A stretch of 35,859 bases of DNA from Acidimicrobiia bacterium (lineage in GTDB: Bacteria > Actinomycetota > Acidimicrobiia > Acidimicrobiales > CATQHL01). Under the pieces are notes generated by a model. The model saw only the letters and a program-made list of their open reading frames with translations. It was not told where the DNA came from and searched no databases. Every line of letters starts with the position of its first letter. The stretch's first letter is position 1. The stretch is taken from positions 1 to 35,859 of the forward strand of contig VXNF01000095.1 in the NCBI GenBank assembly GCA_009840735.1, written 5' to 3'. This document shows positions 1 through 3,590 of the stretch, in pieces. The translations under genes and the position numbers were made by a program.

Positions 1-112
1 CGTGCTCGTGCTCGTCGTCGTGCTCGTGCTCGTCCTCGTGGTCGTCGTGGTCGTCCATGTGGTCGTCGTGCTCGTCGTCGTGCTCGTCGTGGTCGTCCTC
101 GTCGGCGTGTCC
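1..112. repeat. Degenerate GTC/GTG/CTC trinucleotide tract encoding the ZnuA His/Asp/Glu loop
   Basis: On the plus strand this stretch is nearly all GTC, GTG and CTC triplets. Read on the minus strand these are GAC, CAC and GAG, giving the Asp/His/Glu-rich loop of ZnuA. The tract is imperfect and has no spacers, so it is coding low-complexity sequence and not a CRISPR. Confidence 0.8.
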
Positions 113-703
113 GTGGCCTCCGAACATGTCGGCGTCGAACTCGATGGTGGTCACCTGCTCGGCCGCAGAGAAGATCGGTGTGCCGTCGGCCTTCGCCGCG
201 GCAAGAGTGTCCGCCAACGCCTGTTCGAGTTCCAGGCCGTTCTCCACGATCAGGTCGGCCGCGTCGAGCCGGGCGCGGTCGGCCATGGACGCCTCGAAGT
301 CGTGCGGGTCGGCGACCGGCGGGATGATGGACTCCACCTCGGCCAGCCCGCCGCACGCCACGTTCTGGGCGATGTCCGCCCAGATCGTCGTGGTGGCGAT
401 GATCTGGGCCGGCGGCTGGTCGCCGTCGCTGTCGGCCGCGGGCGATGGGGTCTCGCTGGGCGAGGGAGACGTGGCGGGCGGTGGCGGGGCCGTGGGTTCG
501 GCCTGTTGGTCGGCAGCGGTTGCGGCCGGCTCGGGCGGGCTTGCGGCAGGTGCAGCGTCGGAGGACTCCTCAGAGGCGCAACTCGCCAGCACGAGTGCCA
601 GAGCGCAGCCGACTACGGTCGCTCGCCGAAGCGGCGTCCGGCGCACTGCGGCGAGAGCGCGACGGGTGTGCGTTGCGGGATTGAGATTCAGAATGAGATT
701 CAT
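1..703 (-). CDS. znuA: Zinc ABC transporter substrate-binding lipoprotein, ZnuA-like (3' part cut by window edge)
   Basis: Periplasmic/extracytoplasmic metal-binding lipoprotein that would deliver Zn(II) to a ZnuBC-type importer. Only the first 234 residues are in the window. Visible: an Arg-rich n-region and hydrophobic segment ending in a lipobox (LASC, Cys42); a Ser/Pro/Ala-rich tether (about 43-95); the start of the binding domain (ATTTIWADI); the family motif DPHDFEAS with the probable first metal ligand His134; and, from about residue 195 to the edge, a run composed almost only of His, Asp and Glu, typical of the zinc-scavenging loop of ZnuA proteins. The ATG at 703 is chosen because a -10-like TATGCT lies 7 nt upstream. 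It is transcribed divergently from znuC with two Zur-type palindromes between them. The permease gene (znuB) is not in the window and may lie beyond the left edge. Specificity for Zn rather than Mn is inferred from the His-rich loop and the adjacent zur. Confidence 0.88.
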   Translation of the reverse strand, partial: MNLILNLNPATHTRRALAAVRRTPLRRATVVGCALALVLASCASEESSDAAPAASPPEPAATAADQQAEPTAPPPPATSPSPSETPSPAADSDGDQPPAQIIATTTIWADIAQNVACGGLAEVESIIPPVADPHDFEASMADRARLDAADLIVENGLELEQALADTLAAAKADGTPIFSAAEQVTTIEFDADMFGGHGHADEDDHDEHDDEHDDHMDDHDDHEDEHEHDDEHEH

Positions 704-716
704 GCCCGAGAGCATA
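704..716 (-). promoter_or_regulatory. Putative znuA -10 element, leaderless arrangement
   Basis: The minus strand reads TATGCT (716-711), then 7 nt, then the znuA ATG (703). This places the expected transcription start at or next to the start codon. Zur box A (724-738) would fall between the -10 and -35 positions, as expected for a repressor site. Confidence 0.55.
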
Positions 717-723
717 CTGCAAT

Positions 724-738
724 TGAGAACCGATCTCA
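724..738. promoter_or_regulatory. Putative Zur operator, box A
   Basis: TGAGAACCGATCTCA is a 15-bp palindrome with perfect 5-bp arms (TGAGA/TCTCA), resembling Fur-family boxes. It lies in the znuA/znuC divergent region, 8 bp upstream (znuA direction) of the proposed znuA -10, and zur is encoded 1.1 kb away. Confidence 0.65.
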
Positions 739-742
739 CTAT

Positions 743-757
743 TGAGAACGAATCTCA
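743..757. promoter_or_regulatory. Putative Zur operator, box B
   Basis: TGAGAACGAATCTCA has the same TGAGA/TCTCA arms as box A, with its centre 19 bp away (about two helical turns), so two dimers could bind the same face. It lies next to the expected -35 position for the rightward znuC transcript. Confidence 0.65.
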
Positions 758-778
758 CCGCTCAGCGGCTCGCGCCGC

Positions 779-791
779 TAGCGTGAGTGAC
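779..791 (+). promoter_or_regulatory. Putative znuC-transcript -10 element
   Basis: TAGCGT (779-784) is followed by 7 nt and GTG at 792, which opens a short ORF coupled to znuC. The spacing matches the other proposed leaderless starts in the window. Zur box B ends 21 bp upstream of this hexamer. Confidence 0.5.
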
Positions 792-842
792 GTGAGACAC
801 CCTCGATCTGCCTGGCCGCAGAACACCGCTCGGCTGCTGTGA
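792..842 (+). CDS. Possible 16-codon leader ORF overlapping the znuC start
   Basis: GTG at 792 opens a 16-codon reading frame (begins MRHPRSAW, ends TARLL) that stops with TGA at 840-842. The stop overlaps the znuC GTG (839-841) as GTGA, so ribosomes finishing here could restart on znuC. A -10-like TAGCGT lies 7 nt before its GTG. No Shine-Dalgarno sequence is visible for znuC, so translational coupling would explain how znuC is initiated. The peptide matches no family I know. It may serve only as a ribosome-delivery leader. Alternatively the GTG frame is chance and the region is plain 5' UTR. Confidence 0.35.
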   Translation: MRHPRSAWPQNTARLL

Positions 843-1720
843 CAACGGCGCTCGCGCCGGCACGCCAGCCGGAGACCACGAGCGGCCCACCGTCGCTGCG
901 CGCCGAGGGCGTCACGTTCAGTTACGGAGATCGCCCCGCCATCAGCGAGGTCACGATCCACCTTCCGGCAGGCTCCGTGACAGCCCTCATCGGGCCCAAC
1001 GGCTCGGGCAAGACGACGCTCCTGCATGTGCTGGCCGGGCTGCTCGATCCCGCGTCCGGCGCTGTCGAGGGGCCCGACCGAGTGGCCTACATGCCCCACC
1101 AGCACGGCATCGGCGTCTGGATGCCCCTCACGGTGCGCGAGGTCATCGGCATGGGGCGCTACAGGCTCCGCGGCCTGATCGGCAGGCTGAACGCCGCCGA
1201 CCGGCGCCGGGTCCGCGACGCCGCGGAACTTCTGGAAGTGGCCGATCTGCTGCGCCGGCAGTTCGGCGAGTTGTCCGCCGGTCAGCGCCAGCGGGTACTC
1301 ATGGCGCAGACCATCATGCAAGAGGGCGATCTGTTGCTGCTCGACGAGCCGATCACCGGCCTGGACCTGGCGAGCCAGGGGAGGATCCTTGAGGTGATCA
1401 AGGCGGAACGCGCCAAAGGCGCAATCGTGGTCCTTTCCACCCACCATTTGGACGAGGCGCGCCGCTGCGATCACGTGGTGCTGTTGGCGAACCGATTGGT
1501 GGCGCAGGGGCCGCCGGCGGAGGTTCTTGTCGCCGAGGTCCTGCAAGCCTCCTATCAGGGGCGGATCGTGCAGGCCGGCGACTGCTGCGGGCCCGAGGTT
1601 GACTGCTGCGGCCCGCCCGATGTTGGCGAGGACTGCTGCGAGCATCCAGCGGACCGGCTGCTGGTGCTGGACGACCACGCCCACGGCCACGGCGACCACG
1701 ACGAGCGCGCCCACGCTTGA
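839..1720 (+). CDS. znuC: Zinc ABC transporter ATP-binding protein, ZnuC-like, with Cys/His-rich C-terminal tail
   Basis: Cytoplasmic ATPase of a metal importer, 293 residues. Visible: Walker A GPNGSGKTT (Lys58), Q-loop region MPHQHGIG, signature LSAGQRQR, Walker B LLLLDEP and the switch His in STHHLDE. The core domain ends near residue 245. The remaining tail is unusual: three Cys-Cys pairs in repeated contexts (DCCGP, DCCGP, DCCEH), then a His/Asp cluster (DDHAHGHGDHD). This suggests direct metal binding or sensing by the ATPase, which is inference. The GTG start overlaps the stop of a short upstream ORF. It is divergent from znuA under shared Zur-type boxes and convergent with zur. Assignment to zinc rests on this context. 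A Mn or other metal importer is possible from the ATPase alone. Confidence 0.88.
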   Translation: MTTALAPARQPETTSGPPSLRAEGVTFSYGDRPAISEVTIHLPAGSVTALIGPNGSGKTTLLHVLAGLLDPASGAVEGPDRVAYMPHQHGIGVWMPLTVREVIGMGRYRLRGLIGRLNAADRRRVRDAAELLEVADLLRRQFGELSAGQRQRVLMAQTIMQEGDLLLLDEPITGLDLASQGRILEVIKAERAKGAIVVLSTHHLDEARRCDHVVLLANRLVAQGPPAEVLVAEVLQASYQGRIVQAGDCCGPEVDCCGPPDVGEDCCEHPADRLLVLDDHAHGHGDHDERAHA

Positions 1721-1741
1721 GAGGCCCGCCGGCGCGCCGCC

Positions 1742-1807
1742 GCGTCAGGCTCGGTAGCCGCCAGCACGTCGCCCGTCGGCGTCGACCAGAGCGCGCCCGC
1801 CTGACGC
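1742..1807. terminator. Inverted repeat between convergent znuC and zur
   Basis: GCGTCAGGC (1742-1750) is perfectly repeated in inverse as GCCTGACGC (1799-1807), separated by 48 nt that can itself fold. It fills the gap between two convergent genes. There is no U-tract, so a role as a bidirectional terminator is tentative. Confidence 0.3.
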
Positions 1808-1865
1808 ACTCGGCCCGGCTGATCCGGGGAACGGCCCGGTTCGGTCGCTGTCGTTCTAGGCGGTG

Positions 1866-2312
1866 TCAGGAGCAGGGAGCGCAGTACCCGAAGGCATCGA
1901 TGCTGTGCTCGTCAACGCGAACGCCGTGGAGGTTGGCCGAGCGGTTCAGTTCCGCTTCGATGGCCCGCTCCACCTCGGGGTCCAAGTCGATGTCCACGAT
2001 GGCGCCGCAGGCACGGCACACGAGGTGGTGGTGGTGGCGCCCGAGCTGTTCGGACAGTTCGAAGTGGGCGTAGCTGGCGCCAACGTTGAGGCGGCTGACC
2101 GCGCCGGCCTCCTCGAGCACGGCGAGGGTCCGATAGACCGAACTCTGGGGCACCTGCGGCGTGCGCGGCAGGATTTCCGGAATGGTCAACGGTCGGCCTG
2201 CGTCGGCCAGCACGTCGATCACGAGACGGTGGTTGGACGTGAACCGCCGGCCCTTCGCCTCGAGGCGCAGCAGAACCTCATCGTGAAGGTCGTCTCGATC
2301 GGTCAGCGACAC
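1866..2312 (-). CDS. zur: Fur-family metalloregulator, probably the zinc uptake repressor Zur
   Basis: DNA-binding metalloregulator of 148 residues, the usual Fur/Zur length. The N-terminal winged helix contains RRFTSNHRLVIDVL and the recognition-helix region PQSSVYRTLAVLEEAGAVSR. The C-terminal dimerisation domain has the metal-binding run HHHHLVC and two CxxC pairs (CRAC and CAPC) expected to hold the structural zinc. The GTG at 2312 is preferred over longer forms because TACGCT lies 7 nt upstream and the Fur homology begins soon after it. It sits next to znuA/znuC, whose intergenic region holds two Fur-family palindromes, so Zur is preferred over Fur or Mur. It is convergent with znuC and divergent from the MalY-like gene. 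I saw no TGAGA-type box in its own promoter. Confidence 0.88.
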   Translation of the reverse strand: MSLTDRDDLHDEVLLRLEAKGRRFTSNHRLVIDVLADAGRPLTIPEILPRTPQVPQSSVYRTLAVLEEAGAVSRLNVGASYAHFELSEQLGRHHHHLVCRACGAIVDIDLDPEVERAIEAELNRSANLHGVRVDEHSIDAFGYCAPCS

Positions 2313-2325
2313 GCACGCGAGCGTA
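2313..2325 (-). promoter_or_regulatory. Putative zur -10 element, leaderless arrangement
   Basis: The minus strand reads TACGCT (2325-2320), 7 nt, then GTG (2312). This decides the zur start. Confidence 0.5.
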
Positions 2326-2378
2326 CCGTTGCGCCCGGACAGGACGGGGCGGAGCGGCCACGTTCCCGGCGGCGGTGC

Positions 2379-2390
2379 CACAATGGCGGC
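2379..2390 (+). promoter_or_regulatory. Putative -10 element of the MalY-like gene
   Basis: CACAAT (2379-2384) followed by 6 nt and GTG (2391). It keeps the A2 and T6 positions of a -10 hexamer, and the layout matches other leaderless candidates here. Confidence 0.4.
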
Positions 2391-3590
2391 GTGCGCAGCG
2401 GCGAGCCCGACGACGGTGCCGGTGGCCGCCATGACGGTGTGGCCGATCGGGTGGACGAGCCGGCCAAGCGGGCAGGCGGCAACCTGAAGTGGGGTATCGA
2501 CCCGCCGGGCGTGCTGCCGGCCTGGATCGCCGAGCACGACCTGGGCCCCCCGCCGGTGGTGCGCCACGCGCTACGGCGTCTGGCCGACCTGCCCGATGTC
2601 GGCTACAGCCGGCGAGCTGAGGAGTTGGGCCAGGCGTTCTGCGACTGGGCGGCCCAGCAGCACGGCTGGCGCCCCGATCCGGCGCTCGTGGTCCCGACAG
2701 CGGACGTGCTGCAGGGCATATGGACTGTCGTGGCGGCATTCTCCGCTCCCGGCGACGGAGTGATCAGCACACCTCCCGTCTACCCGTACTTTCACGACGT
2801 CGCCCCCGAGCTGGACCGGCGCAGCCTGGAGTGCCCGCTGCGTCACGATGCCGACGGCTGGCGTCTCGACTTGGACGACCTAGCAGCGCTGCTGGCGCGC
2901 GAGCCGGCCGCCCGAGTTCTGCTGCTGTGCAGTCCCCACAACCCGACCGGCCACCTCTACAGCCGCGAGGATCTGCAGGCCATTGCGGAGCTGACGCATC
3001 GCCACGATGTGCTCCTCGTGAGCGACGAGATCCACTTCGATCTCGTCTACCCGGACGGGACGCACTGCCCGACGCTGGCGCTGCCGGCGGCGGCGGGCCA
3101 CACCGTCGCCCTCTACTCGGCAGGGAAGGCGTTCGCCATCTCGGGCCTGCGCGCCGCGGTCGCCGTCTTCGGGAATGAAGACCTGCACGACCGCTTCAAC
3201 AAGGCGATGCCCCCGCACCTGCTCGGCGGTGTGGGCCGCGCCGGCGTCGAGGCGGCGATCACGGCGTGGCGCCACGGTGCAGGCTGGCTCGACGACCTGG
3301 TGGCGTTGTTCGACCGGCACCGGCAGATGGTGCTCGACGTGCTGGCGGCGGAACTGCCCGACGTCGGCTGCCACCTGCCCGCATCCACGTTCCTCGCCTG
3401 GCTGGACCTGTCGGCGTGCGAGCTGGGCCCGCATCCCGCGGCGAGGCTCGTCGAGACGGCTCGGGTCCGCACCTCGGAGGGCCGCGAGTTCGGCACCGGC
3501 GGTGCGGGCCATGTGCGCCTCAATTTCGGCACCTCCACGGTCGTGTTGGCGGAGATCCTGGATCGGCTCGTGGGCGCCCTGCGTCGCTGA
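2391..3590 (+). CDS. MalY/PatB-type PLP aminotransferase (putative C-S beta-lyase)
   Basis: Fold-type I PLP enzyme of 399 residues, close to the usual length of the MalY/PatB family, whose members cleave cystathionine or cysteine conjugates. Visible in order: the N-terminal family motif (KWGIDPPGVLPAWIAEHDLG), PLP-phosphate region (TADVLQGIWTVV), VYPYF, the Asn of SPHNPTG, the Asp of VSDEIHFDLV, and the PLP lysine in YSAGKAFAISG (Lys246). The C-terminal Arg of GAGHVRLNFGT would bind the substrate carboxylate. The GTG at 2391 is chosen because a -10-like CACAAT precedes it and the family N-terminus aligns. It shares a 78-bp divergent region with zur and converges with the liv operon. Beta-lyase activity is inferred from family. 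An aminotransferase role cannot be excluded. Confidence 0.85.
   Translation: MRSGEPDDGAGGRHDGVADRVDEPAKRAGGNLKWGIDPPGVLPAWIAEHDLGPPPVVRHALRRLADLPDVGYSRRAEELGQAFCDWAAQQHGWRPDPALVVPTADVLQGIWTVVAAFSAPGDGVISTPPVYPYFHDVAPELDRRSLECPLRHDADGWRLDLDDLAALLAREPAARVLLLCSPHNPTGHLYSREDLQAIAELTHRHDVLLVSDEIHFDLVYPDGTHCPTLALPAAAGHTVALYSAGKAFAISGLRAAVAVFGNEDLHDRFNKAMPPHLLGGVGRAGVEAAITAWRHGAGWLDDLVALFDRHRQMVLDVLAAELPDVGCHLPASTFLAWLDLSACELGPHPAARLVETARVRTSEGREFGTGGAGHVRLNFGTSTVVLAEILDRLVGALRR

Follow-up and report, generated by a model that had tools for sequence, protein, structure and literature searches.

The window (the whole stretch of DNA analysed, 35,859 nucleotides) begins within the genes of a putative Azt/Znu-type zinc ABC transporter and its probable regulator. 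Along the locus znuB and znuA come first, next the oppositely oriented znuC, and last a regulator gene that faces it. The genes identified in the window are:

2–703, minus strand: 5' part of a znuA/aztC-like gene for a zinc-binding lipoprotein (Pfam ZnuA, 8.2e-19; AztC is the best NCBIfam match)
839–1720, plus strand: znuC/aztA-like ATPase gene with a Cys/His-rich C-terminal tail (AztA, 209.7 bits, cut-off 220)
1866–2312, minus strand: Fur-family regulator gene, probably zur (Pfam FUR, 2.2e-17)

The contig end cuts znuA inside a His/Asp/Glu-rich repeat, and the remainder of the gene, followed by znuB/aztB, opens contig C45 of the same assembly (G000; 2,719,572 bases, 126 contigs, 84% complete). 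The source is probably a sponge-associated acidimicrobial actinobacterium; by our own reading, the isolate names of relatives (SB0668_bin_6 for L040, IRC4_bin_37 for L041) suggest sponge metagenomes. The znuB-znuA/znuC/regulator order is kept in the congeners G002, G007, G001, and G005, and the znuC-znuA-znuB core is also present in G008, a member of another genus.

The nearest NCBIfam families of the three subunits are AztA, AztB, and AztC (NF040873, NF040871, and NF040870), and the transporter is best described as Azt-like. The resemblance to AztABC extends to the top-scoring family of every subunit, although all three scores fall under the equivalog cut-offs (besides AztA of the window, AztB 268.5/280 and AztC 232/350 for the G007 proteins), and the system here departs from AztABC in its binding protein, which carries a long acidic-His repeat loop, and in its ATPase, which has a Cys/His tail. 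The loop (window 1–110; L082:8740-10329) is long and differs strongly between congeners: that of G007 consists of about nine near-identical HDHDEEDDHDDHEDE units, G002 has units of another kind, and in G001 and G005 the composition is mostly acidic. It probably interrupted the assembly where the contig ends, and may serve to collect zinc while its repeats turn over fast. The ATPase tail (window 1590–1717) contains three CC motifs and a His-rich end, DCCGPEVDCCGPPDVGEDCCEH...DDHAHGHGDHDERAHA, and is common to G002, G004, and G007, with different tails in G001, G005, and G008. It is possibly a metal-sensing tail on a transporter ATPase.

Operator boxes and the znuA promoter

The region between znuA and znuC contains the following elements:

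711–716, minus strand: znuA -10 element, TATGCT, 7 nt before the ATG (703–701), a leaderless-type spacing
734–739, minus strand: znuA -35-like element, GTGAGA, 17 nt from the -10 and overlapped by box A
724–738, unstranded: candidate operator box A, TGAGAACCGATCTCA, a Fur/Zur-type 7-1-7 repeat (pattern match, centre 731)
743–757, unstranded: candidate operator box B, TGAGAACGAATCTCA (pattern match, centre 750)
722–758, unstranded: 19-bp tandem unit holding boxes A and B (TRF, 1.9 copies, 88% match)
779–784, plus strand: znuC -10 element, TAGCGT, 7 nt before the GTG at 792 (TAGCGT-N7-GTG kept in 4/4 close genomes)
792–842, plus strand: leaderless-type leader ORF of 16 codons, VRHPRSAWPQNTARLL and stop
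839–842, plus strand: GTGA overlap of the leader stop and the znuC start (ATGA in congeners)

Two TGAGA-N5-TCTCA palindromes with centres 19 bp apart had been noted from the sequence alone, and both are exact. The 2,719,572-base assembly contains no further exact match, and none at all to the reversed control pattern. A search allowing one mismatch yields no excess (7 matches for the box pattern, 7 for the reversed control), and a wider regulon with more exact boxes was rejected, since none were found in the assembly. Each box is a 15-bp inverted repeat with a 1-bp centre that lies over a metal-uptake promoter and resembles the 7-1-7 Zur site of Streptomyces coelicolor, whose consensus is TGAAAATGATTTTCA (quoted in PMC2823685). 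We regard the two as putative 7-1-7 operators of the Fur/Zur type. The TRF result, a 19-bp unit present in 1.9 copies, suggests that a single operator was duplicated in tandem.

The znuA gene is predicted to be leaderless from its -10-to-ATG spacing, and its -10 element is kept as TATGCT or TATACT in three congeners. The promoter scan found no consensus sigma-70 match, so that the -10 elements and the leaderless spacing are the sole basis of the promoter calls. The sequence-only reading put box A in the expected -10/-35 spacer of znuA; it covers much of the spacer along with most of the -35-like element, which is the layout of a repressor site. It is exact in all three close congeners, in which box B reads TGAGA-N5-TCCCA (one mismatch) and the centres are 18–19 bp apart. 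L014 and L015 are more distant congeners; their best box, TGAGAACCATACTCT, lies across the start codon of znuA, more than 100 bp from znuC. The region of the window aligning with that box (682–702) contains TGAGATTCA twice in the same orientation, 12 bp apart, over the first znuA codons, and may be a decayed or half-site operator.

The case is weaker on the znuC side. The sequence-only reading described a compact divergent promoter with box B abutting the znuC -35, a description that suits this genome but not its lineage. In the window, box B overlaps the expected -35 position (756–761, CACCGC, without resemblance to the consensus) by 2 bases and is 21 bp from the znuC -10 element; the corresponding distance is 57 bp in G004 and 141 bp in G002 and G007. 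Adjacency of box B to the znuC promoter is thus a trait of this genome, absent from the other close members of the lineage, and the conserved operator target is znuA. Zur control of znuC is putative, and a weaker claim than control of znuA.

These distances, as well as the position of the best box in L014 and L015, favor a view in which the tandem boxes repress only the leaderless znuA-znuB genes, znuC is constitutive or separately controlled, and box B comes near the znuC promoter here only because the spacer is shorter. We consider this a contender, at somewhat under even chances. Against it, several other families of the order have a single box of the TGAGAAT-N-ATTCTCA type directly in front of the homologous ATPase gene (TGAGAATCATTCTCA in L039, TGAGACTCATTCTCA in L036, and TGAGAACTATTCCCA in L026 are examples), which makes control of znuC-type genes by such boxes plausible, and other bacteria are known to have divergent znu genes under Zur control. 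The locus illustrates how a difference in spacer length alters which divergent promoter an operator can reach, and an operator motif of the type TGAGAAY-N-RTTCTCA is now available for metal-uptake genes of the order.

Leaderless starts and the ORF preceding znuC

Leaderless initiation was presupposed by the sequence-only reading, and the genome bears it out. Starts of the form TANNNT-N6-8-RTG number 75 against 11.1 expected in ~0.90 Mb of the source genome (G000), 24 against 4.5 in G007, and 39 against 6.4 in G008; expected counts are taken from other -10-to-start spacings, and all counts are approximate because gene calling relied on a simple rule of codon-position GC. Given this excess in three genomes, it is very probable that leaderless transcription is used regularly in the lineage. 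The signature is present at znuA, at the leader ORF, and at the regulator gene (TACGCT-N7-GTG). A recognisable Shine-Dalgarno sequence is missing from many genes here, and a strong one from most of the genes called.

The 16-codon ORF was proposed to begin at the 5' end of the znuC transcript and to end on the znuC start, and comparison with relatives was named as the check. Four close genomes were compared (that of the window, G002, G004, and G007). The frame is open for 16, 19, 19, and 19 codons, respectively, and in each its TGA (840–842 in the window) overlaps the znuC start, as GTGA with the GTG at 839–841 in the window and as ATGA in the other three. The sole indel among them is 9 nt long and preserves the frame. 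All four thus combine a -10 element ~7 nt before the RTG with a kept TGA/RTG overlap, and in none of them is there a Shine-Dalgarno sequence at znuC. The more distant L014 and L015 are without the leaderless leader, and GGAGAGGAGG, a Shine-Dalgarno sequence, precedes their znuC ATG.

The proposal survives as a layout, but not as a conserved peptide. Pairwise comparisons reveal no purifying selection on the leader peptide (0–5 synonymous versus 7–10 non-synonymous changes per pair), and a functional peptide was dropped for want of an excess of synonymous change. Likewise, the suggestion that znuC translation depends on the leader agrees with the layout kept in 4/4 genomes, but genome-wide the number of RTGA-coupled leaderless ORFs shows no excess (3 observed versus 2.7 expected in 0.90 Mb); coupled leaders as a genome-wide device were discarded, the count being at chance level. 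A further leaderless-type ORF, TACGGT-N8-VRVAVREPKRKTAL and stop, is found at L079:15352-16677; through a GTGA its end coincides with the start of what is probably a membrane-protein gene.

The absence of peptide conservation and the background rate of coupled leaders would both be expected if the ORF were incidental, with znuC having a 47-nt 5' UTR and its GTG recognised directly without a Shine-Dalgarno sequence, as for many genes of this genome. The open frame and GTGA overlap would then be by-products of high GC and of a Val/Met-Thr start: a neutral frame of this length stays open in three lineages ~65% of the time, and any RTG-A start yields RTGA automatically. What speaks against an incidental ORF is that the -10 element is exactly 7 nt from the GTG, a typical leaderless spacing here, in 4/4 genomes, that the only indel keeps the frame, and that the overlap survives exchange of ATG and GTG. 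We view an incidental leader as possible, at roughly one chance in three. Because spacing, frame, and overlap are kept together, translation of the leader and its feeding of znuC are somewhat favored, at slightly better than even chances.

Several other candidates were rejected. A riboswitch or other known RNA element was dropped, as an Rfam search of positions 1–3000 returned no match; so was a leader RNA with a stable or attenuator-like fold (z-scores of -0.26 and 0.32), and the scan reported no terminator-like site. An extended znuC was likewise rejected, as the window has no in-frame ATG, GTG, or TTG ahead of 839.

The regulator and a model for the locus

The boxes were attributed to an encoded Zur. 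A Fur-family gene does lie next to znuC, both here and in congeners, and it is the sole FUR match in its own, incomplete, assembly, whereas G002 and G004 have three each. Three observations bear on the subfamily of its product. First, its nearest solved relatives include, at similar scores, Fur proteins as well as the S. coelicolor and Mycobacterium tuberculosis Zur proteins. Second, pairwise alignment places a Ser at the Cys position of the two Zur proteins, so that the sensor-site Cys (the YRRC position of actinobacterial Zur) is lacking. Third, its HFELSE motif has a Glu at the position of E81 of E. coli Fur (FEL). The Ser/Glu pattern is constant in the genus members aligned, and among the aligned positions are residues that we take to be metal-binding. 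With no Zur-type cysteine at the aligned position, we infer zinc specificity from synteny; the name Zur, given by location and by the Azt-like transporter, is plausible.

The Ser and Glu residues, and the relatedness of AztC-like binding proteins to Mn/Fe binding proteins, would suit a Fur- or Mur-like iron/manganese sensor acting at the boxes instead of a zinc sensor. We judge this unlikely, because the best score of each transporter subunit is to the zinc Azt system, the ZnuA loop and the ATPase tail have His-rich stretches, and the box is like the S. coelicolor Zur site.

Fur-type control combined with a leader-fed znuC is, as a whole, the explanation that we prefer, with moderate confidence. 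The region would be the control region of the zinc transporter, with znuA-znuB on its left and znuC on its right. When metal is plentiful, a Fur-family repressor, most likely the product of 1866–2312, would bind the tandem 7-1-7 pair and block RNA polymerase at the leaderless znuA promoter. The znuC gene would be transcribed the opposite way from TAGCGT, its mRNA beginning at or beside the GTG at 792. A 70S ribosome would initiate there on the 16-codon ORF, terminate at 842, and restart on the overlapping znuC GTG, and the leader may be a ribosome-delivery device rather than a sensor peptide. In this genome alone, the shorter spacer would set box B against the znuC promoter, and both sides may be co-repressed. 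It is very improbable that the leaderless leader places the ATPase level under post-transcriptional control by the capacity for leaderless 70S initiation, apart from repression-only znuA-znuB; if true, zinc-starvation ribosomes would be one example of that capacity setting the ATPase level.

Comparison with known systems

In E. coli and other gamma-proteobacteria, znuA and znuCB are divergently transcribed, with Zur-type operators between znuA and znuC. The present locus shares this divergence and operator placement, but znuB accompanies znuA, the promoters are predicted to be leaderless, and the operator sequence is different.

Other parallels come from the actinobacteria. In Corynebacterium glutamicum, leaderless znu transcripts have been experimentally mapped, with Zur boxes over the core promoter (PMC2823685). 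As in that regulon, palindromic Fur-family boxes overlap the predicted leaderless core promoters of zinc-transporter genes, a divergent pair included; the motif there is a 21-bp 10-1-10 repeat, whereas here there are two 15-bp boxes, arranged as a 19-bp tandem unit, with a leader ORF on one side. Shell et al. (2015, PMC4633059) described mycobacterial leaderless small ORFs that an RTGA couples to the gene that follows, and noted that small-ORF placement and coupling can persist without peptide conservation; according to a 2025 review, short ORFs of this sort are a means to deliver ribosomes (PMC12548453).

The combination of these devices had been presented as not known. Although no published case joining Zur, leaderless transcription, and a leader peptide was found in the open-licence literature, each device has been published separately, as leaderless RTGA-coupled ORFs (PMC4633059) and as leaderless Zur-controlled znu genes (PMC2823685), and the locus is therefore a fresh instance of known devices and mostly ordinary. 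Like the mycobacterial coupled ORFs (PMC4633059), it has an mRNA predicted to start at an RTG, a short ORF, a TGA overlapping the next RTG, and an architecture that is kept while the peptide is not. It differs in being a sequence prediction, in an acidimicrobial actinobacterium, at a zinc-transporter gene, and with no genome-wide enrichment, and it would extend leaderless initiation and the RTGA-coupled small-ORF layout from mycobacteria to uncultured acidimicrobial bacteria.
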